The notes under the pieces: generated by a model | Seen by the model: the letters and a program-made list of their open reading frames with translations, nothing else | Told to the model about the DNA's origin: nothing | Database searches by the model: none | Virus record (IMG/VR): IMGVR_UViG_3300017917_002512 | Location: 1-24,135 of that record | Source of the DNA: a virus | Reading direction: 5' to 3' (one strand) | DNA: 24,135 nt | Program-made: the position numbers and the translations under genes | In this document: piece after piece, positions 6,095 to 10,753 of the stretch | Layout of the letters: each line of letters opens with the position of its first letter | How positions within the stretch are numbered: position 1 is the first letter of the stretch

Positions 6095-6709
6095 TTACTT
6101 TAGAAATTCTTTTATTTCTTCTAAAGAGATAAAATTAGCTCTTGCTTCTCCGATAACATTTTTGCTGCTCAAAAGACCAATAACAGTTTTATCTTTTGTT
6201 AACAATGGACCACCAGACATACCATTTGTGACATTCATAAAGACACTGTATTCAAGTCTTGAATCTAGTTCATTGTCTCTTTTAACGTCGATTATTTCTT
6301 TTATATCTCCCTCTGATTTGTGCATTGTCCAAACACCTCTAGGAAAACCATAACAAATAACATTTTGACCAACAACTGCACATACAGTATCGATTTTGTA
6401 AAAAACATTTGAATCTGTTTCGATTTTAAGCAAAGCTAAATCTTTTGATTTGTCTTGTTTAACAACCGAAGCAATGTAATATTTTCCATCAAATTCAACC
6501 CTAACGTTTTTAGCATCATCAATAACATGCGCAGCAGTAAGAATTTCATTCTTAGAAATAAAAAAGCCAGATCCGCAAGCTCCGCCTCCGGTTTCCTTAT
6601 CTGGTTCACACCTTATAAAACACGTTTGACCGTAAAGACTCGAACAAATTAAAGTGAAAACAACGAGAGAAAGAAATAAAACAGACGCGGTTCTTTGCAG
6701 GGCTTTCAT
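6095..6709 (-). CDS. Exported trypsin-like serine protease
   Basis: A 204-aa protease of the trypsin/DegP-like fold (S1). The catalytic triad is visible: His in LTAAHVID (about residue 60), Asp in SKDLALLKIE (about 89), Ser in GMSGGPLL (about 164). The oxyanion-hole GGP is intact. Residues 1-28 form a signal peptide, with a basic start, a hydrophobic core LFLSLVVFTLICSS, then SLYGQT. The protein is therefore probably exported through the host Sec system. No PDZ domain follows. It overlaps nrdB as ATGA with GGAGG ahead, so it is expressed with the reductase. It may act in the periplasm or cell surface; the target is unknown. Confidence 0.9.
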   Translation of the reverse strand: MKALQRTASVLFLSLVVFTLICSSLYGQTCFIRCEPDKETGGGACGSGFFISKNEILTAAHVIDDAKNVRVEFDGKYYIASVVKQDKSKDLALLKIETDSNVFYKIDTVCAVVGQNVICYGFPRGVWTMHKSEGDIKEIIDVKRDNELDSRLEYSVFMNVTNGMSGGPLLTKDKTVIGLLSSKNVIGEARANFISLEEIKEFLK

Positions 6710-7776
6710 AATACGCCTCCGAAATCTATGTCATCTAGATCATTTTTACTCGCTCCAATTTTGTATGAGGTGATTTCGTGTTCTTGTGGAGCAACTTGAA
6801 CAGCCTCACTATTCATCCAGTGTTCTGTCCATCCTGCAATTGGATTCTTGCCAACATTTTCGTAAGGCAATCCAATCGCTTTGCGTCTTGACATTACCAG
6901 CCAGTCGATATATTGATGCAGTACAGTTTCATTGAGTCCAATAATCGAGCCATTCTTAAACAAGTATGAAGCCCATTCTTTTTCTTCTTTTGCCGCACTT
7001 TCAAACAATCTACATGCCGGTTCTTGACATTGTTGCGCAGTCTTGATAAAACCCTCAGATTCTTCTGAATGTAAAATCTTGAGTATTTGCTGAGTGTTCA
7101 TCAAGTGCAAAGCTTCGTCTCGTTTGATAAGTTTGATGATGTCTGCATTGCCAACCATCTTTTTATTTTCGGCAAAAGCAAAGCTACAAACAAAACTAAC
7201 ATAAAAACGAACAGCTTCCAAGATATTTATACTCACAATTGTCATATAAATCTGTTTTTTTATGTCGGAAATCTTGTTGGTATCACAAGCCATTCCCATC
7301 AAATTGTTGTAATCCTCGATGGCAGTATTGGCTCGTTTCATGATTTCCCGGTCTTCATAAATACCATCAAACACCTCTTTGCTGTCAGAATAAACATTTT
7401 GAATGATATAACTATAACTTTGAGAGTGAATTTTTTCGAAAAACTGCCATGTCATCAAGCAGGCTTCGAGTTCGCTATTGGTTACATACTCCAAAAGAGT
7501 TGGCACTCCTCGGCAAATAACACTATCCAACATAGTCTGATACTTTAGATTAGACGTAAAAATAAACTTTTCGTTCTCGGACATTTCCTTAAAATCCGCC
7601 CGATCTTTCTTTAATTCTATTTCTTCAGGTCGCCAAAAGTTCATCATTTGCTTGCTATCAAGCTCCTTAAAAATGGGATACTTGATAATATCGTACCTTT
7701 GGACACCCAAATCCTTTCCAAGGAAAAGGGGCTGACTCATTGGATCTACATTATTTGTATTGAAAATAGTCTTCAT
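6706..7776 (-). CDS. nrdB: Class Ia ribonucleotide reductase, beta subunit
   Basis: A 356-aa NrdB providing the diiron-tyrosyl radical for ribonucleotide reduction. The metal/radical ligands are seen: Asp in KYQTMLDSV, Glu and His in FFEKIHSQSY, where the final Tyr (about residue 120) matches the radical tyrosine, Glu in LEAVRFYVSF, and RDEALHL with the last Glu and His ligands. The start MKTIFNTNNVDPM resembles T4 NrdB (FNTN-VD). GAGG precedes the ATG with somewhat long spacing. Just upstream lies an imperfect copy of its own ribosome-binding site and first codons (7806-7837), probably a scar of the endonuclease insertion. Confidence 0.97.
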   Translation of the reverse strand: MKTIFNTNNVDPMSQPLFLGKDLGVQRYDIIKYPIFKELDSKQMMNFWRPEEIELKKDRADFKEMSENEKFIFTSNLKYQTMLDSVICRGVPTLLEYVTNSELEACLMTWQFFEKIHSQSYSYIIQNVYSDSKEVFDGIYEDREIMKRANTAIEDYNNLMGMACDTNKISDIKKQIYMTIVSINILEAVRFYVSFVCSFAFAENKKMVGNADIIKLIKRDEALHLMNTQQILKILHSEESEGFIKTAQQCQEPACRLFESAAKEEKEWASYLFKNGSIIGLNETVLHQYIDWLVMSRRKAIGLPYENVGKNPIAGWTEHWMNSEAVQVAPQEHEITSYKIGASKNDLDDIDFGGVL

Positions 7777-7837
7777 AATTTCTCTTACCTCTTAAAAATT
7801 GTCAAATTGAAAATGGTTTTCATATTTCTCTATCTCC
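7759..7837 (-). repeat. Imperfect direct repeat at the nrdB start
   Basis: Two same-strand copies of about 33 bases lie at 7759-7791 and 7806-7837. Minus strand: GAGGTAAGAGAAATTATGAAG continues as ACTATTTTCAAT in the true nrdB start. The other copy reads GAGATAGAGAAATATGAAAA then CCATTTTCAAT. They differ by a few substitutions and small indels. The upstream copy forms the last codons and stop of the HNH gene, then an ATG followed by the same first six residues (MKTIFN) as NrdB. It ends after 12 codons at TAA 7785. Confidence 0.8.
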
Positions 7838-8458
7838 TTTGCTTAAATTATCTAATGCCCAAAGAGGCTGCAAATTAGTGTAATGAAAACACTTCTGTTG
7901 TTCCTTCGGATTAGATAAATCGAAACTAGCACATGGTTTAATATGGTCAACATGCCACTCGCCATAATTTTCTCGTGTCATACCTTCTATAAAAAGAGAT
8001 TCAAGATGATCCCATAATTCATTTACTGTACAACCTAACAAGTCAATTGTAGTTGAAGTTTTTACATTAGTACTCCCTTTGCTTCTATTTAAAGCCCCAT
8101 ATAGTCTACATCTTAAATTAGATATTAACCTATAATTCTGATTATTCTGATATCTATTTTTTTCATATTCATATCTTTTGGCTTTAAAATGTTCGGTTTG
8201 TTCATATTTTCTACATCTAGCCCTATGCAGTTTTTTATTATGTTCGGTTTGAGCATAATCTTTTCGCTTTTTAATACCATGTTCCGATGCTGCATATTTT
8301 TTTCGCCTAATACGAGCCATTTTCTTTTGTTGTTCTGTAGATGTTTCTAGTCTTCTACATTCTTTGCAACAACCACGAAAACCATCTTTAGATTTTGAAT
8401 ATTTTCCAAAATCATTGATATTTTTTTCTGTTTTACATTTTGAACAAGTTTTTGTCAT
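7820..8458 (-). CDS. HNH homing endonuclease (free-standing)
   Basis: A 212-aa HNH endonuclease. The N-terminus carries a zinc-binding pair (CSKCKTEK and CCKECRR). The middle is repetitive and very basic, rich in E-H and R-K-Y segments (residues 45-100) that probably bind DNA. The C-terminus has the HNH motif: WHVDHIKPC, then LSNPKEQ, then HYTNLQPLWALDN. ATG 8458 overlaps the nrdA stop as ATGA; the longer frame uses a TTG inside nrdA. It lies between nrdA and nrdB, the location of T4 mobE, which belongs to a different endonuclease family. It probably spreads by cutting phages lacking it at this junction. Confidence 0.92.
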   Translation of the reverse strand: MTKTCSKCKTEKNINDFGKYSKSKDGFRGCCKECRRLETSTEQQKKMARIRRKKYAASEHGIKKRKDYAQTEHNKKLHRARCRKYEQTEHFKAKRYEYEKNRYQNNQNYRLISNLRCRLYGALNRSKGSTNVKTSTTIDLLGCTVNELWDHLESLFIEGMTRENYGEWHVDHIKPCASFDLSNPKEQQKCFHYTNLQPLWALDNLSKGDREI

Positions 8459-10710
8459 ATCGAACAAGCGCCTCCTTGACAATCAGAACTTTCTTCTCCT
8501 AGCATTTGAGAATGTTCTTTATCCCCGTCTGGAGTATTTGCGTAGTAAAAATTCTTTAATCCATATTTGTAACCGTAAATTTGATCTTTGATTAATACAC
8601 TCAAAGGAATATTTCCATCTGGATAATGAGAATAATTGTAATACAAATTTGTACTCATACTCATATCCACGAACTTTTGTATAACTGCTGCAACATTCAT
8701 TATAGCCTTATTGCTGGTCATTTCCCAAGCCAAAGTATAGTAATTTTTCCGCATATGGTAATTAGGAACCAACTGCTTTAAAACTCCATTTTTAGCCTTC
8801 TTGTATAAGAGCAAGCTTCTGACTGGCTCGATTCCATTTGTACTGTTCTGAATAACGCTAGACGATTCACAGGGCATTATGGCAGAAAGAGTTGAATGTC
8901 TAAGACCGTATCGCTTGACGCGCTCTCGTAACTCTTCCCAGTCCATAGTATATACCGGCTTAACGAGTTCGTCAACTGTTTTTTTGTACCAATCTATTGG
9001 CATTAATCCCTTGGCATATTTAGTATCTTTGAACTTAGGACAAGCGCCCTTTTCCTTTGCTAATTCGCAACTAGCATTGATAAGATGCCATTGAATTTCT
9101 TCCATAATTTTATGAACCAAAGGAAGTGTTTCTGGATCTTCGTACTTTAATTTATTTTTTGCCAAAAATCCAGCAAGATTGGTTACACCAATACCAAGCG
9201 ACCTTCGATTTTTAGTAAAGTTTTCTCCGGCAAAAACCGGATAATCCTGATAGTCAATAACAGCATCTAGTGTTCTTACGGCTATTTCACAAGCCTTTTG
9301 AACATCAGAAGAATCGCCATCAAAAATTTCCAGCAAATTGAGTGCTGAAAGTATACAAATACCTATTTCACCATCACGATCATCAATTGACTTTATTGGT
9401 TTCGTTGGGTGTATAATTTCTTGGCACAGATTGCTCATGTAGCACGGAATATCCCAAGACCCATGCTCGTTGGCAGTGTCGATATTCATACTATAAATAC
9501 GTCCAGTTTCAAGTCTTTCTCTTGCAAAAATTTCAGCAAGCTTTCGTGCCGATATTTTCTTTTTAAACTTTAACGACCTTGAATTTTCATATCTAAGATA
9601 CAGTTCTTCAAATTTTTCATTGTCGCCAAATGCTTCGTAAAGACCCTTTGCTTCGTGGGGACTAAACAAAGTAATTTCTTGATTTGAAATCAAACGGTCG
9701 TAAAAGAGTTTACAAAACTGAATTGAGTAATCAAGTTTGCGAACTCGATTATCATCAGTTCCAGCGTTATTCTTCAATACAAGAATATCTTCAATTTCAT
9801 AATGCCACCAAGGACAATGAACGGTTGCACTTCCTCCACGAATTCCGTTTTGAGACGTTGATTTAACAACCGATTCAAAGTTTTTTAAATACGGTATTAC
9901 TCCAGTATGAATAACCTCGCCGCCGCGAATTGGTGAGTTTATAGGACGCATACGTCCTATATTCAAGCCAATACCAGCTCGTCTAGCAGTATACTTTCCA
10001 ACCGCATGAATGCTAGAAAAAATACTATCCAAGTTATCTTCAACATCAACCAAAACACAACTAGCAAACTGACGAATATTTGTACGAACACCAGCCATAA
10101 TTGGAGTTGGAAGATTTATCTTGAATGTTGAATAACAGTCATATGCCTGTTTTACATCTTCGATTTTATCGAATAAGCACATGGCAATACACATGTATGC
10201 AAACTGAGGGGTTTCGTATATTTGTCCAGTACTTCTATTCTTTACCAGATATTTATCGATCATTTGCTGTAGACCCGCGTATGTAAACAAATCATCGCGA
10301 GTATGATCTATATATTTGCCAAACATTTCAATTTCTTCATCGTCCCATTTCTTTTCCAGAATTGGATCATAAATGCCATTGTCTATATTTCTTTTTACAA
10401 ACAATACAAAATCTACTGGCTTGTGAAGTTTGCCACAATTCCAAACTTCTTTTCTTAGCTGCATGTTTAACAATCTAGAAGCAACATATTGATAATTCGG
10501 AGCAGAAGTAGAAATTAAATCATTTGCCGACTTAATCAAAACTTGATGTATTTCTTTTGTAGAAATTCCATCGTAAATAGATAGATTGGCATTCATTTCA
10601 ACATCGGAAAATGAAACACCATTGATTCCTTTTGTAGCCCATTCAACAACTTTATGTATTTTCTCTACAGAGAATTGTTCTTGTTCGCCATTGGCTTTTG
10701 TTACTTTCAT
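8455..10710 (-). CDS. nrdA: Class Ia ribonucleotide reductase, alpha subunit
   Basis: A 751-aa NrdA that reduces NDPs to dNDPs. An N-terminal ATP-cone-like region (TKANGEQEQFSVEKIHKVVE) is followed by the ten-stranded barrel with the catalytic cysteines. These are FASCVLVDVEDN (first redox cysteine), SNLCQEI (thiyl cysteine) and IGICILSALN (second redox cysteine). The radical-transfer tyrosine pair is suggested in the C-terminal third (HMRKNYYTLAW). The tail ends CQGGACSI, the mobile cysteine pair reduced by thioredoxin or glutaredoxin, as in E. coli. ATG 10710 has GAGG upstream. No intein or intron interrupts it. A sigma-70 promoter lies 44 bases upstream. Confidence 0.97.
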   Translation of the reverse strand: MKVTKANGEQEQFSVEKIHKVVEWATKGINGVSFSDVEMNANLSIYDGISTKEIHQVLIKSANDLISTSAPNYQYVASRLLNMQLRKEVWNCGKLHKPVDFVLFVKRNIDNGIYDPILEKKWDDEEIEMFGKYIDHTRDDLFTYAGLQQMIDKYLVKNRSTGQIYETPQFAYMCIAMCLFDKIEDVKQAYDCYSTFKINLPTPIMAGVRTNIRQFASCVLVDVEDNLDSIFSSIHAVGKYTARRAGIGLNIGRMRPINSPIRGGEVIHTGVIPYLKNFESVVKSTSQNGIRGGSATVHCPWWHYEIEDILVLKNNAGTDDNRVRKLDYSIQFCKLFYDRLISNQEITLFSPHEAKGLYEAFGDNEKFEELYLRYENSRSLKFKKKISARKLAEIFARERLETGRIYSMNIDTANEHGSWDIPCYMSNLCQEIIHPTKPIKSIDDRDGEIGICILSALNLLEIFDGDSSDVQKACEIAVRTLDAVIDYQDYPVFAGENFTKNRRSLGIGVTNLAGFLAKNKLKYEDPETLPLVHKIMEEIQWHLINASCELAKEKGACPKFKDTKYAKGLMPIDWYKKTVDELVKPVYTMDWEELRERVKRYGLRHSTLSAIMPCESSSVIQNSTNGIEPVRSLLLYKKAKNGVLKQLVPNYHMRKNYYTLAWEMTSNKAIMNVAAVIQKFVDMSMSTNLYYNYSHYPDGNIPLSVLIKDQIYGYKYGLKNFYYANTPDGDKEHSQMLGEESSDCQGGACSI

Positions 10711-10753
10711 CACTTTACCTCTTTTGCAATATAAATAAGTTATCCGGTAGAGT

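Follow-up and report, generated by a model that had tools for sequence, protein, structure and literature searches.

An HNH endonuclease gene between nrdA and nrdB of an uncultured phage is flanked by foreign-looking pieces of both neighbours: nrdA ends in a tail of another type, and behind the HNH gene the start of nrdB is present twice. The gene probably entered a phage like L001, one of its nearest relatives, by recombination with an HNH-bearing relative like L023, whereby the nrdA tail and the nrdB front of the donor were taken along.

Layout of the nrdA/nrdB junction

The window, i.e. the whole stretch of DNA analysed, is a virus record of 24,135 bases. The features of the junction are:

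8455-10713, minus strand: nrdA, ribonucleotide reductase large subunit (Pfam PF02867, 6.5e-132), with a body of the L001/L002 type that it tracks over its length
8455-8520, minus strand: foreign nrdA 3' tail (KEHSQMLGEESSDCQGGACSI*), apparently co-transferred with the HNH gene (score of 102 to the L023 tail; L034/L023 comparison)
7820-8458, minus strand: HNH endonuclease gene, 212 aa (PHROG 1035 endonuclease VII, 2.8e-18; 59% identity to the L023 HNH; invariant residues)
7785-7823, minus strand: stub with the duplicated nrdB start, MKTIFNLTIFKR*, its ATG overlapping the HNH stop (alignment and positional test)
7804-7811, minus strand: TTCAATTT, perhaps a microhomology involved in the right-hand join (common to the MKTIFNL-type nrdB front and the L001-type nrdA end)
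7786-7801, minus strand: CAATTTTTAAGAGGTA, putative remnant of the recipient nrdA end and nrdB leader (alignment to the L001 and L002 leaders)
6706-7776, minus strand: nrdB with its own start, encoding the small subunit of ribonucleotide reductase (Pfam PF00268, 4.4e-46; 96% identity to L001)

All four coding elements are encoded on the minus strand, and nrdA and nrdB are ordinary class I ribonucleotide reductase subunits. The 3' end of nrdA reads ..TGTTCGATATGA (last codons TGT TCG ATA TGA), and its TGA is overlapped by the start ATG of the HNH gene (ATGA). The HNH gene closes with the TGA at 7822-7820. This stop is overlapped in turn by an ATG at 7823-7821, where a frame of 12 codons opens (ATG AAA ACC ATT TTC AAT TTG ACA ATT TTT AAG AGG TAA). 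Only 8 nt separate the stop of this stub from the true nrdB ATG at 7776, with which nrdB begins as ATG AAG ACT ATT TTC AAT ACA AAT AAT GTA.

An nrdB promoter in the spacer was considered and rejected: TTGACA (7805-7800) lacks a -10 box at an allowed spacing, and promoter-like matches occur at the level of shuffled sequences. No terminator was found in the stub/nrdB spacer region. Directly downstream of nrdB lies a gene for a trypsin-like serine protease with an apparent signal peptide (6095-6709, minus strand; PF13365, 3.8e-20), followed by thyX. At the contig end (24000-24135) the G+C content rises to 0.55, compared to 0.35 for the whole window, which reflects either a recent acquisition or an assembly edge.

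The start of nrdB is duplicated behind the HNH gene

The best local alignment pairs 7806-7831 (copy 1) with 7759-7785 (copy 2) and spans 27 columns with 24 identities and one gap. With the nrdB start and leader against the insert it scores 37, compared to a maximum of 35 in 2000 dinucleotide shuffles and to 28 for the same query in the remainder of the window. The placement was evaluated by a positional test. Behind the stub ATG, 13 of 15 bases match nrdB codons 2-6. The window holds 876 ATGs on both strands, and apart from nrdB none of the others matches 11 or more of the 15 bases; in 3 Mb of simulated sequence with 66,223 ATGs, 13 matches never occur. The duplication of the nrdB start is real. 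Given that the coding part by itself (an 18-base match) yields only z = 2.8 when the whole insert is searched blindly, the significance rests on the leader match together with the exact placement at a start codon.

These results bear out the earlier note, according to which the 3' end of the HNH gene carries an imperfect copy of the nrdB start that encodes MKTIFN within 12 codons, and which had asked whether the copies are related beyond chance. Its extent of 33 bases including the ribosome-binding site has to be reduced: 26-27 bases are convincing, whereas the AAAGGAG resembling a ribosome-binding site (7834-7840) encodes the end of the HNH protein itself (..LSKGDR), which recurs in related proteins (..LSKGDRYYA in L124). 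AAAGGAG hence probably resembles the nrdB ribosome-binding site by coincidence.

The nrdA/nrdB junction in relatives

We compared the window to 80 IMG/VR loci, whose nrdB identity reaches 96%, and to more loci found through nrdA. In 24 of 58 distinct near-relative junctions, nrdA and nrdB share an ATGA with nothing in between. Another two, those of the nearest relatives L001 and L002, show a TAA and a short leader, and the remaining 32 hold an insert of about 100 to 3,600 bases, whose first ATG overlaps the nrdA stop as ATGA in 22 cases. The junction therefore represents an insertion hotspot, which the HNH gene of the window, to judge by its ATGA overlap, uses in the common way. Other inserts at this site (e.g. 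in L009, L014, L019, L029, L056 and L079) comprise cytidylyltransferase-like, zinc-ribbon, GFAT-like, dehydrogenase and unknown genes.

Over their lengths, both nrdA and nrdB of the window follow L001/L002. The closest relatives (L001-L004) have neither the HNH gene nor an extra start, and the second nrdB start is likewise absent from the 24 distinct junctions with ATGA overlap; the duplicated segment, whose presence in relatives lacking the endonuclease the earlier note had named as evidence against its reading, is thus not seen in any of them. A degenerate search of IMG/VR for two nrdB starts 20-50 nt apart returned no hit, and the exact junction of the window is seen in one contig. Within a genome collection the best nrdB (88%) belongs to L322 (VFHP01000007.1, 152,655 bases), which is filed under a SAR202 MAG and has the same kind of nrdA/nrdB with a cytidylyltransferase-like insert. 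It is possibly a phage contig binned with this MAG and would as such hint at the host.

Copied nrdB starts turned up at two more loci when 40 distinct inserts were surveyed. In L041, a gene of 58 residues is preceded by ATGAAAACTATTTTGATTACTA, which still overlaps the nrdA stop (z 8.5 relative to the consensus start); in L225 the copy is located between two similar FkbM-like genes (z 7.9). Insertion at the nrdA/nrdB junction can hence leave such scars. As a general habit of the HNH family the duplicated start was rejected: a duplicated downstream start is found at 1 of 102 distinct HNH 3' ends, namely that of the window.

The HNH gene is accompanied by a foreign nrdA tail

L023 carries an HNH gene at the same junction, and six contigs in all have an HNH gene of the L023 type. 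L034 is the same phage type as L023 without the HNH gene. Along 900 bases of the nrdA 3' part the two share 84-98 matches per 100-base block, and their nrdB genes are 94-97% identical. In contrast, the last ~22 codons of nrdA, beyond the conserved NTPDGD, differ (GDGDTEKDMNCDSGACAI in L034, GDKEHNEMLGEEEGGCIGGACSI in L023). Since both phages agree on either side while the nrdA end is replaced in L023, the HNH gene brought along an nrdA tail of its own.

The window repeats this pattern. Its nrdA tail (GDKEHSQMLGEESSDCQGGACSI) departs from that of the nearest relative L001 (GDGDTEKGMNCESGACSI) and, among 60 distinct tails, scores 102 to L023, the next best reaching 64 and the sister L001 44. The foreign part comprises the last ~21-22 codons, matches only the other HNH-bearing allele and is absent from all near relatives without the HNH gene. 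Tail and HNH gene occur together in 2 of 2 HNH alleles and in 0 of 57 other distinct near junctions. In the window as in L023 the foreign end is in phase with the upstream gene. The replaced nrdA tail in both L023-type alleles points to co-conversion of flanking sequence, as read from sequences rather than crosses. A third, more distant HNH gene (46%) is found in L189 at the same ATGA, where nrdA keeps an ordinary tail; the foreign tail is hence a trait of the branch of the element that comprises the window and L023.

In L023 and L241-L246, nrdA is divided into two frames, the N half after MSNLC and the C half ending VFDVTVKHNHNFYANGVLVSN before CQEI. The break looks like a split intein. A GIY-YIG-like ORF (MLHYVYKITFKTTLKTYIGMTSKSPTERIHKHY..) is located between the halves, and L034 does not show this arrangement, which we take to resemble the published 'fractured genes'.

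The HNH protein

The predicted protein belongs by sequence to the endonuclease VII-like phage proteins of PHROG 1035, whose name is annotation only, and has no Pfam HNH match. The HNH residues DH171-172, N195 and N204 as well as four cysteines (C5, C8, C31 and C34) are invariant in 16 relatives, so that a nuclease motif of the homing endonuclease class is recognisable in the translation. Structure prediction has low confidence in the HNH part; a fold search with the model and a sequence search of solved structures gave no significant match. The region was also searched against Rfam without a match. A group I intron was therefore rejected, and no known intron type was found. The HNH gene is a gene of its own that does not reside inside an intron or intein, and the junction is empty in L001-L004, L034 and others. 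Motif, empty sites and flank co-conversion fit a putative free-standing phage homing endonuclease gene.

Proposed transfer and origin of the stub

Sequence comparison establishes the insertion, the tail replacement and the duplicated start. The earlier note had proposed that the endonuclease gene arrived by recombination together with the nrdB front of its donor. This is supported by the HNH-less relatives, which lack a second start, and by the likeness of the copies beyond chance; moreover the foreign tail of ~21 codons matches the HNH-bearing allele, and the MKTIFNL of the stub equals the nrdB start of that allele. The transferred piece would consist of the last ~21 codons of the donor nrdA, the HNH gene and the first ~7 codons of the donor nrdB. 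The left join, probably homologous, lies within the conserved NTPDGD region of nrdA, which stayed intact yet took the donor tail, as its sequence shows. The right join, the least certain step, would be illegitimate and fuse codon ~7 of the donor nrdB to the nrdA end and leader of the recipient. Owing to such a non-homologous join the recipient nrdB would have kept its own start and ribosome-binding site, leaving the donor front as a stub of 12 codons. Nicking or cleavage by the HNH protein may have been the trigger, by analogy to the free-standing endonucleases of T4, and recombination at the junction would accordingly be nuclease-driven. Coupling through the start/stop overlaps (nrdA-HNH and HNH-stub) probably maintains translation along the operon.

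The right-hand edge was inspected for traces of this join. The first nrdB residues are MKTIFNL in L023 and L034, and MKTIFNT in the window as in L001; codon 7 of the stub alone separates the donor type from the own type. TTCAATTT occurs both in an nrdB of the MKTIFNL type (ATTTTCAATTTG) and in an nrdA end of the L001 type (TGTTCAATTTAA), and the right join perhaps took place through it. The spacer between stub and nrdB, CAATTTTTAAGAGGTA, shows similarity to the nrdA end plus leader in both L002 (CAATTTAAAGAGGTA) and L001 (CAATTTAACGAGGTAA). No other sequence beyond the HNH gene resembles a displaced native nrdA end, and this match is weak. An equally good alignment is obtained in 3 of 2000 (L001) and 15 of 2000 (L002) shuffles, and L075, an unrelated locus, reaches the L001 score, which makes the remnant a weak point. 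It counts against the proposed transfer that the HNH gene of L023 leads into nrdB with nothing duplicated, and that no contig with the exact donor arrangement was found among the viral loci compared.

Alternatively, the HNH gene and the nrdA tail may at first have come with only one nrdB start, which was copied later within this genome, along with part of its leader, by slippage or templated repair and then decayed. Such a separate local duplication is unlikely, yet it accounts for the extension of the copy alignment into the leader: the word AGAGAAAT precedes both starts and is absent from the L001/L002 leaders, and in L225 the copied stretch also reaches into the leader. However, a plain tandem copy would continue into nrdB ACAAATAATG.., where TTGACAATTTTTAAGAGG follows instead, and codon 7 of the stub is Leu of the L023 type.

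It appears very unlikely that the stub is a selected regulatory element, translated by ribosomes leaving the HNH gene which reinitiate at nrdB and thereby set the NrdB level. With the stop/start overlap at the HNH end, the stub stop 8 bases from the nrdB start and an unstructured region, coupling or reinitiation is possible, and for the overlap of nrdA and mobE in T4 coupling has been suggested, too (PMC2988022). Comparative support is lacking, though, as the stub occurs in one contig and at 0 of 102 other HNH 3' ends, nor is there an RNA structure: a hairpin over the nrdB start was rejected, the region being less structured than shuffles.

An assembly chimera or chance resemblance, to which the single contig with the exact junction and the unexceptional 18-base coding match would lend themselves, is scarcely credible in view of the shuffles and simulated ATGs (0/2000 and 0/66,223 as good), two copies that differ unlike typical assembly repeats, intact frames, and the HNH/tail pairing found independently in six other contigs.

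Returning to transfer from an HNH-bearing donor, a distinctly unlikely extension is that the donor nrdB front forms part of the mobile unit, as a portable start/stop coupler that allows the endonuclease gene to settle in the nrdA-nrdB overlap and passes ribosomes to nrdB, with the recoded nrdA tail conferring resistance to the element's own nuclease.

Comparison with known systems

In this region the passage of a free-standing endonuclease gene from one phage to another, together with pieces of both neighbours, can be read from the sequence, with the states before and after sequenced twice (L034/L023 and L001/window). It marks the nrdA/nrdB stop-start overlap as an entry place for many different genes and allows a concrete prediction of the target, namely the nrdA 3' end or the nrdB 5' end of HNH-less phages.

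In T4, mobility of free-standing endonucleases is accompanied by co-conversion of the flanks, and mobE is located between nrdA and nrdB (PMC2988022). The parallel to mobE, already drawn in the earlier note, applies to the location and strand, the overlap of the start codon with the nrdA stop (UAAUGA in T4) and the patchy presence. It does not extend to the proteins, for which no homology is detectable (BLASTP E 4.4). Unlike the window, T4 has nrdB.1 after mobE, and its nrdB start is not copied in the mobE region. Flank co-conversion is covered by the T4 review, whose text does not contain the word duplication (PMC2988022). The literature was also searched for partial duplications that accompany phage homing endonucleases, which gave nothing relevant.

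For the exchange of gene ends, mobile ORFs of fungal mitochondria are the closest parallel. Gene-end swapping of this kind has been described there: the upstream gene receives a foreign C-terminus, in phase, from an endonuclease ORF, and its native end is displaced (PMC3630166). Cases are known from Allomyces atp6 and from Glomus atp6, atp9, cox2 and nad3, with duplicated native sequence left beyond the ORF (PMC3630166). The fungal ORFs encode LAGLIDADG or GIY-YIG proteins, in contrast to the HNH protein and the ~21-codon tail of this phage, and the clear duplicate in the window is the start of the downstream gene. Taken together, the element seemingly works like a mobile ORF of the fungal type without being a member of that group, as an HNH protein in a phage.
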